Assembly (NCBI GenBank): GCA_005889295.1
Contig: VBEY01000235.1
Span: forward strand, 1-38,246
Direction: 5' to 3'
Length of the DNA: 38,246 nucleotides
Source: Chloroflexota bacterium
GTDB taxonomy: Bacteria; Chloroflexota; Limnocylindria; P2-11E
Part shown: in pieces, positions 12,674 through 34,938 of the stretch
Position numbering within the stretch: the first letter of the stretch is position 1
How the letters are laid out: every line of letters begins with the position of its first letter
Position numbers and translations under genes: made by a program
The notes under the pieces: generated by a model
What the model saw: the letters and a program-made list of their open reading frames with translations, nothing else
Told to the model about the DNA's origin: nothing
The model's database searches: none

Positions 12674-13513
12674 GTGCCGCTGAAGCAATACAAGGCGACA
12701 TCGCCGGTGCGTCGCTTCCGCCAATCGGCCTCGTTCGAAGAGCTGACCAAAGGCAAGAAGCCGGAGCGCAGCCTCACTGAGCGCAAGCTGCGCCATGCCG
12801 GCCGCAACGCGCAGGGCCGCGTCACGACACGCCATCGTGGCGGCGGCGAGAAGCGGAACTACCGCATCGTCGACTTCAAGCGCGACAAGGACGGGATCCC
12901 CGCGAAGGTGACGGCGATCGAGTACGACCCGAACCGCTCGGCCCGCCTCGCGCTCATCGTGTACCGCGACGGCGAGAAGCGCTACATCATCGCGCCGAAC
13001 GACCTGCGGGTCGGCGACCCGGTCATCTCCGGACCGGACGCCGAGGCGCGCGTCGGCAACTGCCTGCCGCTCGAGCACATCCCCACCGGCACGCAAATCC
13101 ACGGCATTGAGCTCCAGCCCGGTCGCGGTGCGCAGCTCGTGCGCGCCGCCGGCGGCGCAGCGCAGCTCGTCGCGAAGGAAGGCGAATACGCGCAGATTCG
13201 TCTGCCTTCCGGCGGCATCCGCGTCGTCCACGTCCGCTGCCGCGCGACGATCGGGCAGATCGGCAACGTCGAGCACGAGAACCAGAAGGTCGGCGGCGCC
13301 GGGCACAAACGCCACATGGGCTGGCGCCCAGCCGTTCGCGGCGTGGTGATGTCACCGCGCGACCACCCTCACGGAGGCGGCGAGGCGAAGTCGCCCGTCG
13401 GTGGTCAGGCGCAGACGCCGTGGGGCAAGCCGGCGATGGGCCTTAAGACACGCAACAACCCGCGCACCGATCGGTTCGTGACCGAGCGGCCGCCGAAGAG
13501 GAAGTCCAAGTAA
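12674..13513 (+). CDS. rplB: Ribosomal protein L2
   Basis: GTG start; [55 protein letters not shown]. Confidence 0.98.
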
Positions 13514-13598
13514 TGAAACGAGCGAGGAGCGGCTTTGCCGCGACGAAGCGAGTCACTCCGCCTGGGGCGTGTCTCCCGGCGCAGCCGGAGATTGAGCA
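13514..13598 (+). repeat. Intergenic RBS-hairpin repeat, copy A (upstream of rpsS)
   Basis: GAGCGAGGAGCGGCTTTGCCGCGACGAAGCGAGTC...GGGGCGTGTCTCCCGGC-GCA-GCCGGAGATTGAGCA|ATG; matches copies B, C and D. Confidence 0.93.
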
Positions 13599-13961
13599 AT
13601 GAGCCGATCAGTAAAGAAGGGCCCCTTCGTCGAGAAGTCCCTCAAAGAAAAGATCGACATGCTGAACTCGCGAAACGAGAAGAAGGTCGTGAAGACCTGG
13701 TCGCGCCCGTCGATGATCCTGCCGATCATGGTCGGCCACACCATCGCGGTCCACGACGGCCGCCGTCACGTGCCGGTCTTCATCACCGAGAACATGGTTG
13801 GGCACCGGCTCGGCGAGTTCGCGGCCACGAGGAGCTTCCGCGGGCACGGGCGCGCGATCGCGGCGGCCGAGGCGGCGAGCGCGATTGTTGCGCCTGGGGC
13901 CACGCCGGCGGCGGGTGCCGGCACGCCCGAGCGCGCCACCAATGTGAGGGCAGGTGCCTAG
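13599..13961 (+). CDS. rpsS: Ribosomal protein S19 with Ala/Gly-rich C-terminal extension
   Basis: [70 protein letters not shown]. Confidence 0.97.
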
Positions 13962-14301: not shown

Positions 14302-14389
14302 GAATGGACCGAGCGAGGAGCGGCTTTGCAGCGACGAGCGAGTCAACCCGCCTGGGGCGCATCTCCCGGCGAAGCCGGAGATTGATCTA
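14302..14389 (+). repeat. Intergenic RBS-hairpin repeat, copy B (upstream of rpsC)
   Basis: GAGCGAGGAGCGGCTTTGCAGCGACGAGCGAGTCAACCCGCCTGGGGCGCATCTCCCGGC-GAA-GCCGGAGATTGATCTA|GTG. Confidence 0.93.
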
Positions 14390-15121
14390 GTGGGTCAGAA
14401 AACACATCCGATCGGGTTCCGCCTCGGTTTCACGAAGACGTGGAACGCGAAGTGGTTCGCGAACAAGAAGAACTACCCGGTGCTCCTCAAGGAGGACATC
14501 GGGATCCGGAGCGCGATCCGCAACCGTCTGCGGGACGCCGCGATCGCCCGGATCGACATCGAGCGCTCGGCGAACCAGGTGACCGTCACGATCCAGACGG
14601 CCAAGCCCGGCGTCGTCATCGGCAAGGGCGGCGCGAAAGTCGAGGAGCTGCGGCAGGTCCTCGGGAAGATGACCGGCAAGATGGTGAAGGTGAACATCTT
14701 CGAGATCCGGTACCCGGAGCTCGACGCATACCTCATCGCCGAGAACGTCGCGCAGCAGCTCGAGCGGCGCGTCTCCTTCCGAAAGGTGCTGAAGCAGACC
14801 GTGCAGCGCTCGATGAAGTCAGGCGCGAAGGGCGTTCGCGTGGCGGTCTCCGGTCGCTTGGGCGGCGCGGAGATGAGCCGTCGCGAGTGGGAGCGCGAGG
14901 GACGCGTGCCGCTCCATACCCTGCGGGGCGACATCGAGTTCGGACGGGCGATCGCGAAAACGACGTTCGGCACGATCGGCGTGAAGGCGTGGGTCTACAA
15001 GGGCGAGATCGAGCCGGCCCCGCGCCAGGTTACGCAGGCGAACGCACCTGCCGCCGCACCCCAGCGTCCGCCGGCTCCTCCAGCACCGGCACCCGCGCCG
15101 GCGCCGGCCAGGGTGAGCTAG
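14390..15121 (+). CDS. rpsC: Ribosomal protein S3 with Ala/Pro-rich C-terminal tail
   Basis: [58 protein letters not shown]; tail [26 protein letters not shown]. Confidence 0.98.
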
Positions 15122-25071: not shown

Positions 25072-26097
25072 ATGACCCTAGTAGAGCTTGAGTACCCCAA
25101 GATCGAGCGCATCGAGGGCGACGAGCGTTACGCGAAATTCGCGTGCGAGCCGCTCCCGCCCGGATACGGCACGACCCTTGGGAACTCGCTGCGTCGCGTG
25201 CTCCTGAGCTCGCTCCCAGGCGCCGCGATCACGGCCGCGCGCGTGCGTGGCGTCGCCCACGAGTTCTCCACCATTCCCGGCGTGAAGGAGGACGTCGTCC
25301 AGCTCGTCCTCAACCTGAAGCAGATCCGTCTCCGCTCGTTCGCGAGCGAGCCGGTGACGCTCACCCTCGAGAAGTCCGGTCCCGGCGAGGCGACCGCCGC
25401 GGACATCATGACCACGAGCGAGATCGAGATCGTCAACCCCGAGGCGAAGATCGCCACCCTTGAGCCCGATTCATCGCTCTGGCTCGAGCTGACCGTCGAG
25501 ACTGGCCGCGGATTCCACTCGGCCGATCGCCGCGAGGGCCTGCCGATCGGAGTCATCCCGATCGACGCGCTCTACAGCCCAGTCAAGAAGGTGAACTTCG
25601 CGGTCGAGAGCACTCGCGTCGGACAGGTCACGAACTACGACCGCCTCATCCTCGAGGTCTGGACCGACGGGACGACGACGCCCGACGACGCGGTCGCGCA
25701 GGGCTCGCAGATCCTCGTGCAGCAGTTCTCGCTCTTCGCCGGGCTCACCCGGTCGCAGACCGCGCTCGCGCAGCCCGAGCGGACGAACGGCTCGGCGCTG
25801 CCGGCCGCCATCGCGGACATGCCCATCGAGGACCTCGACCTCCCGCAGCGGGCCTTCAACTCACTGAAGCGGCACGGCATCACCAAGGTCGGTCAGCTCC
25901 TGCAGACCCCCGACGACGAGCTCCTCCGCATGCGCAACTTCGGCAAGAAGTCGCTTGACGAGATCAAGGAGCGCCTCGCGGCGCGCGGTCTCATCGAGGC
26001 GCCGGTACGCGACGAGTCGTCGATTGGCAGCGACGAGCCGGTGGCCGAGGATGAGGGCGAACCCGAGACGAGCATGACCGAGGGCGACGAGAGCTAG
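25072..26097 (+). CDS. rpoA: DNA-directed RNA polymerase alpha subunit
   Basis: FACEPLPPGYGTTLGNSLRRVLLSSLPGAAITAARV, FNSLKRHGITKVGQLLQTPDDELLRMRNFGKKSLDEIKERL. Confidence 0.98.
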   Translation: MTLVELEYPKIERIEGDERYAKFACEPLPPGYGTTLGNSLRRVLLSSLPGAAITAARVRGVAHEFSTIPGVKEDVVQLVLNLKQIRLRSFASEPVTLTLEKSGPGEATAADIMTTSEIEIVNPEAKIATLEPDSSLWLELTVETGRGFHSADRREGLPIGVIPIDALYSPVKKVNFAVESTRVGQVTNYDRLILEVWTDGTTTPDDAVAQGSQILVQQFSLFAGLTRSQTALAQPERTNGSALPAAIADMPIEDLDLPQRAFNSLKRHGITKVGQLLQTPDDELLRMRNFGKKSLDEIKERLAARGLIEAPVRDESSIGSDEPVAEDEGEPETSMTEGDES

Positions 26098-26188
26098 TGC
26101 GCAAGGTTGAGCGAGGAGCGGCTTTGCGGCGACGAGCGAGTCGATCCTGCCGGAGGCATGTCTCCGGCGGCAGCCGGAGATTAATCTA
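26098..26188 (+). repeat. Intergenic RBS-hairpin repeat, copy C (upstream of rplQ)
   Basis: GAGCGAGGAGCGGCTTTGCGGCGACGAGCGAGTC...GGCATGTCTCCGGC-GGCA-GCCGGAGATTAATCTA|GTG. Confidence 0.93.
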
Positions 26189-26731
26189 GTGCCGCATCAA
26201 GTCCACGAGCGGAAATTCGGACGACGCACCGGTGCACGCCGGGGAATGCTTCGCAACCTGACGCTCTCGGTGCTTCGATACGAGCGCGTGAAGACGACCG
26301 AGGCGAAGGCCAAGGAGGTTCGTCTGTTCGTAGACCGGATGATCAACCTCGGCAAGGACGGATCCCTGGTCGCGCGGCGCCGCGCGCTGGCGTGGCTCCC
26401 TGAGCCCGTCATCGTCGAGAAGGTCTTTTCGGATCTCGCGATCCGCTGGCCCGACCGCGGCTCGGGATACGTGCGAATTACCCATATCGGCCGGCGCGTC
26501 GGCGATTCGGCGCCGCAGATGCTCCTCGAGCTCGTGCCCGCACCAGAGAAGCCGACGGCCGAGAAGCCGGATGCGGCAGAGGAGCCCAAGCCGCGTCGTA
26601 GGCTCGCCCTTCCGCGCCGGCGGGCGACGGCGGCCAAGAAGGAAGAGACGAAGGCCGAGGCGAACGCCAAAGCCGCGGCCAAGGCGACGGCACCCAAGAA
26701 GAAGAAGACGGCGAAGGGAGCAGCGACCTAA
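26189..26731 (+). CDS. rplQ: Ribosomal protein L17 with long Lys/Ala-rich C-terminal extension
   Basis: MPHQVHERKFGRRTGARRGMLRNLTLSVLRYERVKTTEAKAKEVRLFVDRMINLGK. Confidence 0.96.
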   Translation: MPHQVHERKFGRRTGARRGMLRNLTLSVLRYERVKTTEAKAKEVRLFVDRMINLGKDGSLVARRRALAWLPEPVIVEKVFSDLAIRWPDRGSGYVRITHIGRRVGDSAPQMLLELVPAPEKPTAEKPDAAEEPKPRRRLALPRRRATAAKKEETKAEANAKAAAKATAPKKKKTAKGAAT

Positions 26732-31756: not shown

Positions 31757-33085
31757 TTGACGAGGCTCTTCGGCACCGACGGCGTCCGCGGCGTCGCGAA
31801 TCTCGACCTCACCCCGGAGCTCGCGCTTCGGCTCGGCCGGGCGGCCGGGCACGTCCTCGGCGGGCCGGGCCATTCGGTGGTCATCGGGCGTGACACCCGC
31901 CGAAGCGGCCGCATGCTCGAGAGCGCGCTCGCCGCGGGGCTGTGTTCGGTCGGCATGGAGGTGCGCCTGGTCGGGCATGTTCCAACACCCGGGCTCGCGT
32001 ATCTCGCGAAGACAGATCAGTTCGTGGCCGGTGCCGTCATCAGCGCGTCGCACAACCCCGCGCCAGACAACGGAATCAAGTTCTTCGATCACCGCGCGCA
32101 GAAGCTGCCGGATAGCGTCGAGGACCGGATCGAGGGTCTGATGACCGGAGACGACACCCTTCCTCGTCCCACCGAGGGCGGCATCGGCCTGGTCGGTGAC
32201 TCCAGGGGACTGGTGAAGGAGTACGAGAACTTTCTCGTGGGGAAGGCGCCGCGGCTCGACGGCATCCGTGTCGCGCTCGACTGCGCGAACGGGGCCACGT
32301 ACCGCGTTGCGCCGGCGGTCTTCGCACAAACGGGTGCGGAGGTCCTCGCGTACTTCGACAAGCCCGACGGCCAAAACATCAACGAAGGATGCGGGGCCAC
32401 CGCGCCCGAAGCGCTCCAGCGACTCGTCGTTGATAACAAGGCCGACGTTGGTTTCGCATTCGATGGCGACGGCGACCGCGTGATCGTTATCGACGAGCGT
32501 GGCCGCGCGCATAACGGCGATTTCGTGCTGGCCCTCGCGGCCCGCCACTTCGTACGCAACGGCAAGCTCAACCCGAAGATCGTCGTCGGGACGGTCATGA
32601 CGAACGGCGGCCTCGAGTACATGCTCGCTCGTGACGGTGTCCGGCTCGAGCGCACGCAGGTCGGGGACCGCTACGTCTGGGAAGCCATGGAACGGCTCGG
32701 CGCGCAGTTCGGAGGCGAATCGTCCGGACACGTAATCTTCCGCGAGTACTCGACCACCGGTGATGGCATCTTCACCGCGCTCGAGGTGTTGCATCTCGCG
32801 CGCGCGGAGGGGCGCACGCTCGGGGAGCTTGCCGACGAGATGAAGTTCTGGCCGCAGGTGACTCGCAACGTGAAGGCCGCGCGCCGCCGTGAGTGGGAGA
32901 AGAACGACGCCTTCCGTGCCGCGAAGCAGAGCGCCGAGGCGAGACTCGGGTCCACCGGGCGCCTCCTGGTTCGGCCATCGGGGACCGAGCCGGTCCTCCG
33001 GATCACTGTCGAGGCGCAGGACTCCACGGTGGCCAAGAGCACCGCGAACGAGCTCGCCCAGGTCGCCGCGAAGGAGCTCGTCTGA
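31757..33085 (+). CDS. glmM: Phosphoglucosamine mutase
   Basis: TTG start; LFGTDGVRGVANLDLTPELALRLGRAAG, GAVISASHNPAPDNGIKFF, FDGDGDRVIVID, GGESSGHVIF, RPSGTEPVLRITVEAQD. Confidence 0.96.
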   Translation: MTRLFGTDGVRGVANLDLTPELALRLGRAAGHVLGGPGHSVVIGRDTRRSGRMLESALAAGLCSVGMEVRLVGHVPTPGLAYLAKTDQFVAGAVISASHNPAPDNGIKFFDHRAQKLPDSVEDRIEGLMTGDDTLPRPTEGGIGLVGDSRGLVKEYENFLVGKAPRLDGIRVALDCANGATYRVAPAVFAQTGAEVLAYFDKPDGQNINEGCGATAPEALQRLVVDNKADVGFAFDGDGDRVIVIDERGRAHNGDFVLALAARHFVRNGKLNPKIVVGTVMTNGGLEYMLARDGVRLERTQVGDRYVWEAMERLGAQFGGESSGHVIFREYSTTGDGIFTALEVLHLARAEGRTLGELADEMKFWPQVTRNVKAARRREWEKNDAFRAAKQSAEARLGSTGRLLVRPSGTEPVLRITVEAQDSTVAKSTANELAQVAAKELV

Positions 33086-33197
33086 TGAAAACGAGCGAGG
33101 AGCGATGCGCTTCGCGCCCAGGGGCCCCTCCCCCTGCCCGCGACGAGCGAGACAACCCGCTGGGGCGTGTCTCCCGGCGAAGCCGGAGATTGAGCTG
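33086..33197 (+). repeat. Intergenic RBS-hairpin repeat, copy D (upstream of glmS; enlarged central segment)
   Basis: ACGAGCGAGGAGCG-[variable GC hairpins]-CGCGACGAGCGAGACAACCCGCTGGGGCGTGTCTCCCGGC-GAA-GCCGGAGATTGAGCTG|ATG. Confidence 0.92.

Positions 33198-34938
<1,741 letters not shown>

Follow-up and report, generated by a model that had tools for sequence, protein, structure and literature searches.

Small intergenic repeats such as MITEs, ERIC/RU, Correia, RUP and BOX elements are dispersed sequences of ~100 nt that lie mostly between genes in tens of copies, some of them with ORFs (PMC2759123, PMC10969869). REP sequences and BIMEs are dispersed stem-loop repeats in intergenic space that often abut genes, and the frequent GT pairing in REP stems has been cited as a sign of transcription (PMC3733652). 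Rickettsia palindromic elements (RPEs) are small palindromic selfish elements whose presence still permits the host locus to be translated (PMC10969869). Termination-reinitiation at ATGA or TGATG overlaps, with variable dependence on a Shine-Dalgarno sequence (SD), has been demonstrated experimentally in E. coli and Haloferax (PMC6728339).

Here, we analyzed a window of 38,246 nt from a Chloroflexota bacterium (contig VBEY01000235.1), in which a sequence-only reading had picked out four hairpins and interpreted them as a conserved device for burying the SD. We find that each belongs to a larger dispersed element. In size, dispersal, intergenic placement and copy number, this element resembles MITEs, ERIC/RU, Correia, RUP and BOX, and like REP/BIME it is an intergenic stem-loop repeat. 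Unlike in MITEs, its ends (GAGCGAGG... and ...GATTGAGC) are by inspection not inverted repeats of each other. With respect to the fixed-length target-site duplications of MITEs, its flanking direct repeats are enriched, variable in length and not present in every copy. It further departs from MITE- and ERIC-type repeats in its strong sense orientation and in a mini-ORF that reaches from the stop of one gene to the start of the next and is fused with neither. Whereas a REP is a palindrome of 20-40 nt, the element measures ~80 nt, contains two structured modules and is flanked by direct repeats; its consensus lacks the terminal GTAG/CGTC tag, and its 3′ stem, unlike REP stems, is almost without G-T pairs. 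Y1/RAYT transposases were found in 0 of 28 genomes of the window's family, with control genomes positive, and we therefore reject REP/RAYT membership, for which size and tag also fail. Like an RPE, the element can coexist with translation at the host locus, but RPEs are in-frame fusions inside ORFs, whereas the element sits between ORFs with a separate mini-ORF that uses all three element frames among the four window copies. It shares the ATGA/TGATG stop/start geometry of termination-reinitiation coupling; in contrast to plain termination-reinitiation, coupling here would be relayed via a mini-ORF supplied by the repeat. We file the element among the dispersed small repeats but outside their named families, as it lacks tested defining features of MITEs (terminal inverted repeats), REPs (Y1 transposase, size, tag) and RPEs (a position inside ORFs). 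The part of the literature that we searched contained no description of the element or of a coupling-preserving repeat, which weakly suggests that it is new.

The hairpins are the 3′ third of a dispersed ~80-nt element

All four stems were confirmed in the sequence (Table 1). In an alignment of 150 nt around each hairpin, similarity among the copies, which we call A-D, starts ~55 nt before the hairpin at GAGCGAGGAGCG and runs to GAGATTGAGC, so that the repeated unit is ~80 nt, not 20, and each hairpin forms its 3′ third. Within the genome that contains the window (339 contigs, 3.23 Mb), the ~80-nt sequences of the four copies match one another and six other places (E = 6e-30 to 7e-14), making ten places that match over most of the repeat. 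Because the matches cover this wider repeat and not the 15-nt core alone, a chance origin of the four hairpins is excluded. A covariance model trained on 66 copies located 15 copies in the window's genome and 2-37 copies in each of 28 out of 28 genomes of its family, a family of soil bacteria represented by MAGs of uncultivated Chloroflexota; 73 more distant genomes yielded a single weak match, in one genome of the same order. The total came to about 420 copies. Copies range from 71 to 105 nt in length, and tandem arrays occur with periods of roughly 83-93 nt. An Rfam scan of the window returned no family above the gathering threshold. A second dispersed repeat, the GC-rich CAGGGGCCCCTNCCCC, occupies 35 genome sites, as opposed to 0 for its reversed control, and lies nested within hairpin loops, 5′ or 3′, in several element copies (window 33103-33137, L257-L286).

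Table 1. Element copies, mini-ORFs and hairpins in the window.
Feature	Junction	Coordinates	Strand	Remarks
Element copy A	rplB / rpsS	13519..13597	+	C-GAGCGAGGAGCG ... GAGATTGAGC; orthologous site empty in L146 and others
Mini-ORF A		13513..13602	+	29 codons + stop; ATG overlaps rplB stop (TAATG); TGA overlaps rpsS start (ATGA)
Copy A 3′ hairpin		13572..13591	+	Stem A of the sequence-only reading; SD-like GGAG in 3′ arm
Element copy B	rplV / rpsC	14310..14387	+	Site empty in all relatives with rpsC start located
Mini-ORF B		14304..14390	+	ATG just past rplV stop; TAG overlaps rpsC GTG
Copy B 3′ hairpin		14362..14381	+	Sequence and folding
Element copy C	rpoA / rplQ	26108..26186	+	Filled also in G003, G004; empty in G006, G008, G001, G010
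Mini-ORF C		26097..26189	+	GTG overlaps rpoA stop (TAGTG); TAG overlaps rplQ GTG
Copy C 3′ hairpin		26161..26180	+	Without bulge; sequence and folding
Element copy D	glmM / glmS	33092..33195	+	5′ hairpin enlarged by second GGGGCCCC-type repeat
Mini-ORF D		33085..33198	+	ATG overlaps glmM stop (TGATG); TGA overlaps glmS ATG (TGATG)
Copy D 3′ hairpin		33170..33189	+	Sequence and folding
Extra GC-rich segment around CGCCCAGGGGCCCCTCCCCCTGCC	in copy D 5′ hairpin	33103..33137 (approximate bounds)	+	Member of second dispersed repeat

Orthologous junctions are filled in some genomes and empty in others

Copies A-D follow rplB, rplV, rpoA and glmM and precede rpsS, rpsC, rplQ and glmS, respectively. 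We compared these junctions among relatives, as far as the fragmentation of the MAGs allowed, and found all four empty in most of them. The rplB-rpsS junction is filled in the window's genome (G000) and in G006; its empty sites read AAGTCCAAGTA|ATGAG in G008 and overlap as AAATGAGC in others, and G018, from another genus, carries a diverged element copy. Among relatives with the rpsC start located, only G000 has a filled rplV-rpsC junction. The rpoA-rplQ junction is filled in G000, G003 and G004, and the glmM-glmS junction in G000 and, among 27 relatives, only in G012, a member of another genus. At many empty sites the stop and start codons overlap, as TAATG, TAGTG, TGATG or ATGA. The element is thus polymorphic for presence and absence at orthologous sites.

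Direct repeats with a match score of at least 9 flank 26 of 93 copies, compared with 17 of 456 mispaired flanks. The clearest of them, AGGAGGCCAAATGAGCGA, flanks L007 on both sides, and in copy C both flanks share CTAGTGC. These duplications vary in length from ~7 to 20 nt, and many copies have no clear one. Judged by its sequence context, the element behaves as a mobile insert that has apparently spread by transposition. That the element arose as a retroelement through a shared reverse transcriptase is unsupported, since that domain occurs in only one of the 28 family genomes.

Mini-ORFs keep a common register between neighboring genes

We assigned gene frames from codon-position composition rather than from annotation, which leaves start codons ambiguous; on this basis, 63 copies are co-directional with both neighbors and 10 are antisense to both (p = 1.6e-10), while a minority of copies are antisense, convergent or divergent. 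Each of copies A-D lies within a mini-ORF whose start codon overlaps, or closely follows, the stop of the preceding gene and whose own stop falls on the start codon of the next gene. The start-to-start distances (86, 86, 92 and 113) are all 2 mod 3 because this stop-on-start geometry requires it. Such a chain closes within 8 nt in 44 of 53 scorable co-directional copies and within 4 nt in 29 of the 53, with stop/start offsets of +1 and -2 dominating its junctions; by the criteria used, 9 of the 53 lack a chain.

The chain depends on phase. Deleting 1 or 2 nt inside the element in silico leaves it in 28% of the 53 copies, whereas deleting 3 nt leaves it in 83%. When orthologues are collapsed into 41 groups, the chain is present in 80%, compared with 24% and 27% after 1-2-nt shifts (p ~ 2e-13). 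TTG starts raise the observed and the shifted rates alike, hence we also applied a stricter test with only ATG and GTG starts and a 4-nt tolerance, in which 36% keep the chain versus 4-5% when shifted. The register holds although chain length varies from 75 to 126 nt, and we judged element length alone to be an unlikely cause, as lengths vary. Copy A and its orthologue in G006 (L043) differ by a +1 and a -1 indel that compensate each other, so that both have an ATG-to-ATG distance of 86. The element's amino-acid frame varies among copies.

Other short inserts occupy comparable junctions. An insert unrelated in sequence lies before glmS, rplV or rpsS at five sites in four genomes (L315-L319 in G009, G010, G025 and G015). 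Its mini-ORF, in a conserved peptide frame, ends like YVHLLTEVL-stop just before the next start, and its CACCTCC-TTAC-GGAGGTG hairpin fully buries GGAGG. Mini-ORFs that end on the next start or close to it also occur in other short insertions or duplications, at L154 (before rpsS, G001), L166 (before rpsS, G011) and L156 (before rpsC, G013); this fits a general selection for coupling in this clade.

Two structured modules with few G-T pairs in the 3′ stem

The 5′ module is predicted to fold into a hairpin whose short Watson-Crick stretches are separated by three tandem G-A/G-A mismatches, which are kept in 82-87 of 88 copies. Covarying pairs comprise (-1:31), (2:28), (3:27), (6:24) and several of (9-13:17-21), with changes such as C-G to T-A at (-1:31) and G-C to C-G at (6:24). 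In our covariation test, 10 pairs showed double changes, a score that 0 of 500 shuffles reached and that left all slid controls far lower. G-T cells in this module are about twice as frequent as A-C cells, so that RNA may also contribute.

Folded in isolation, each 3′ hairpin has the 8 base pairs previously attributed to it: a single C is bulged in copies A, B and D (-9.6 kcal/mol), and copy C forms a perfect stem (-15.5 kcal/mol). In longer folds of the leaders, the outer TCTC/GAGA pairs of A and D give way to other pairings that leave GGAG only partly paired. Neither minimum free energy folding of the full leaders (z of -0.5 to -1.6) nor folding with DNA parameters was informative. Across 89 distinct hairpins, we counted 48 distinct 3′ arms, with 743 of 754 stem cells Watson-Crick and a single G-T, in line with the earlier claim that structure is kept despite sequence change. 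The loop is mostly C-GNA-G (CGAAG in 43). Both tandem sheared G-A steps and GCGAAGC-type GNA triloops are known as stable motifs of DNA, and GCGAAGC mini-hairpins have been used in published work. Together, the scarce G-T pairs and GNA triloops fit DNA folding better than an RNA switch, and the scarcity of G-T argues for a DNA-level constraint or palindrome-templated mutation.

Parts of the 5′ module recur elsewhere. Its G-A-rich core, GAGCGAGGAGCG-N3-GCGACGAGCGAG, tips longer inverted repeats in Halorubrum, other haloarchaea and unrelated bacteria (WY bins, a Parcubacteria MAG), at loci that include L072, L074, L078, L086-L088, L096, L102, L105, L115, L132 and L140. As far as sequence similarity can tell, this suggests a recurring structural motif across unrelated repeats. 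Seven further loci (L082, L100, L118, L076, L126, L125 and L016) have the 5′ module only, joined to a different 3′ half (GAGCGCAGCG...CGAGGCGAGCGCGA or CGAGTGACAACGAG); the 5′ module therefore serves more than one repeat family.

SD burial is a feature of some copies only

In copies A-D, no SD lies nearer the downstream gene than the GGAG in the 3′ arm, which is 8 nt from the start in A and 9 nt in B-D, just as the sequence-only reading had measured. Its view that burial of this SD is what the hairpin is conserved for does not extend to the family: GGAG, GAGG or AGGA is found in the 3′ arm of only 25 of the 89 distinct hairpins, and in the 52 scorable co-directional copies an SD-like motif lies in the hairpin arm in 19, lies downstream of the hairpin in 13 and is absent in 20. 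SD burial thus characterizes some copies only. In copies A-D, the purine-rich end of the upstream gene (e.g. AGAGGAAG before the rplB stop) is now positioned for the mini-ORF. Of the modes of control that had been proposed for the hairpins, translational coupling is the best functional reading, whereas a thermometer or protein binding is without support because the genes have no relation to one another, sister species differ in which sites are filled and the stems are nearly devoid of G-U. What had been overlooked is that a ribosome on the mini-ORF would have melted the hairpin before reaching the downstream start.

Discussion

We consider it likely that a mobile, non-autonomous ~80-nt element, whose 3′ module comprises the hairpins, is tolerated in operons by preserving termination-reinitiation coupling. 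The element would insert around the stop/start junction of adjacent operon genes, often duplicating local sequence. A duplicated or built-in start codon would then overlap or abut the upstream stop and open a mini-ORF through the element that ends at or overlapping the start of the downstream gene. A ribosome that ends the upstream gene would restart on this putative mini-ORF, melt the 3′ hairpin as it translates, terminate on the downstream start and reinitiate there. The ancestral SD near the upstream stop may now serve the mini-ORF in copies A-D, with the element's own GGAG serving the downstream gene. Such a relay of translation would allow the insert to be tolerated in an essential operon.

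Could the hairpin instead be a cis-acting RNA switch, that is, a thermometer, a protein site or an SD sequestrator that controls translation of each gene? Stable hairpins of conserved structure with GGAG in the 3′ arm, their position before four genes that encode ribosomal proteins and GlmS, and the orientation bias would suit such a switch. Yet the SD lies in the arm in a minority of copies, the 754 stem cells contain one G-U, the target genes are unrelated, the same junction is filled or empty among congeneric species, 10 copies are antisense, and Rfam offers no match. We reject a switch as the general function on arm composition and the SD position counts, and regard this explanation as decidedly improbable. 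Also improbable, if slightly less so, is that the element is purely selfish REP/MITE-like DNA, with the register a mechanical by-product of element length and an ATGA/TTGA target motif and without selection on coupling. Direct repeats, tandem arrays, DNA-type stem loops and the clustering of insertion points at stop/start overlaps are what such an element would show; nevertheless, the register holds while element and chain lengths vary, the indels between copy A and L043 compensate each other, and a 63:10 orientation bias is hard to obtain by target choice alone.

A role at the level of mRNA, as an operon spacer, an RNA-processing or a transcription-pausing element (an RNase site or mRNA stabilizer), would account for the strong stems and their sense orientation, and ERIC and Correia repeats are reported to affect mRNA processing (PMC10969869). 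This role leaves unexplained why a shift of 1 or 2 nt breaks a feature kept at 80% of sites, and we think it very unlikely.

Returning to the coupling-preserving element, we propose, with more doubt than confidence, that it represents a mobile class that survives by translation relay: such elements would target overlapping stop/start codons, supply a stop-free mini-ORF in the right phase and thereby invade essential operons, such as those for ribosomal proteins, without polarity. An as yet unrecognized enzyme may move them as single-stranded DNA that is folded through GNA triloops and tandem sheared G-A steps.

If translation is relayed in this way, ribosomes still pass from each gene to the next, and a repeat can thereby colonize even the most constrained operons. 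With its dozens of separate insertions and their empty sister sites for comparison, the element would then serve as a natural experiment in translational coupling. The G-A-rich core in unrelated repeats of haloarchaea and of other bacteria hints at a wider structural motif. Finally, these copies carry a warning: a conserved, SD-hiding hairpin in front of several genes can be the footprint of a mobile element, not a regulator.
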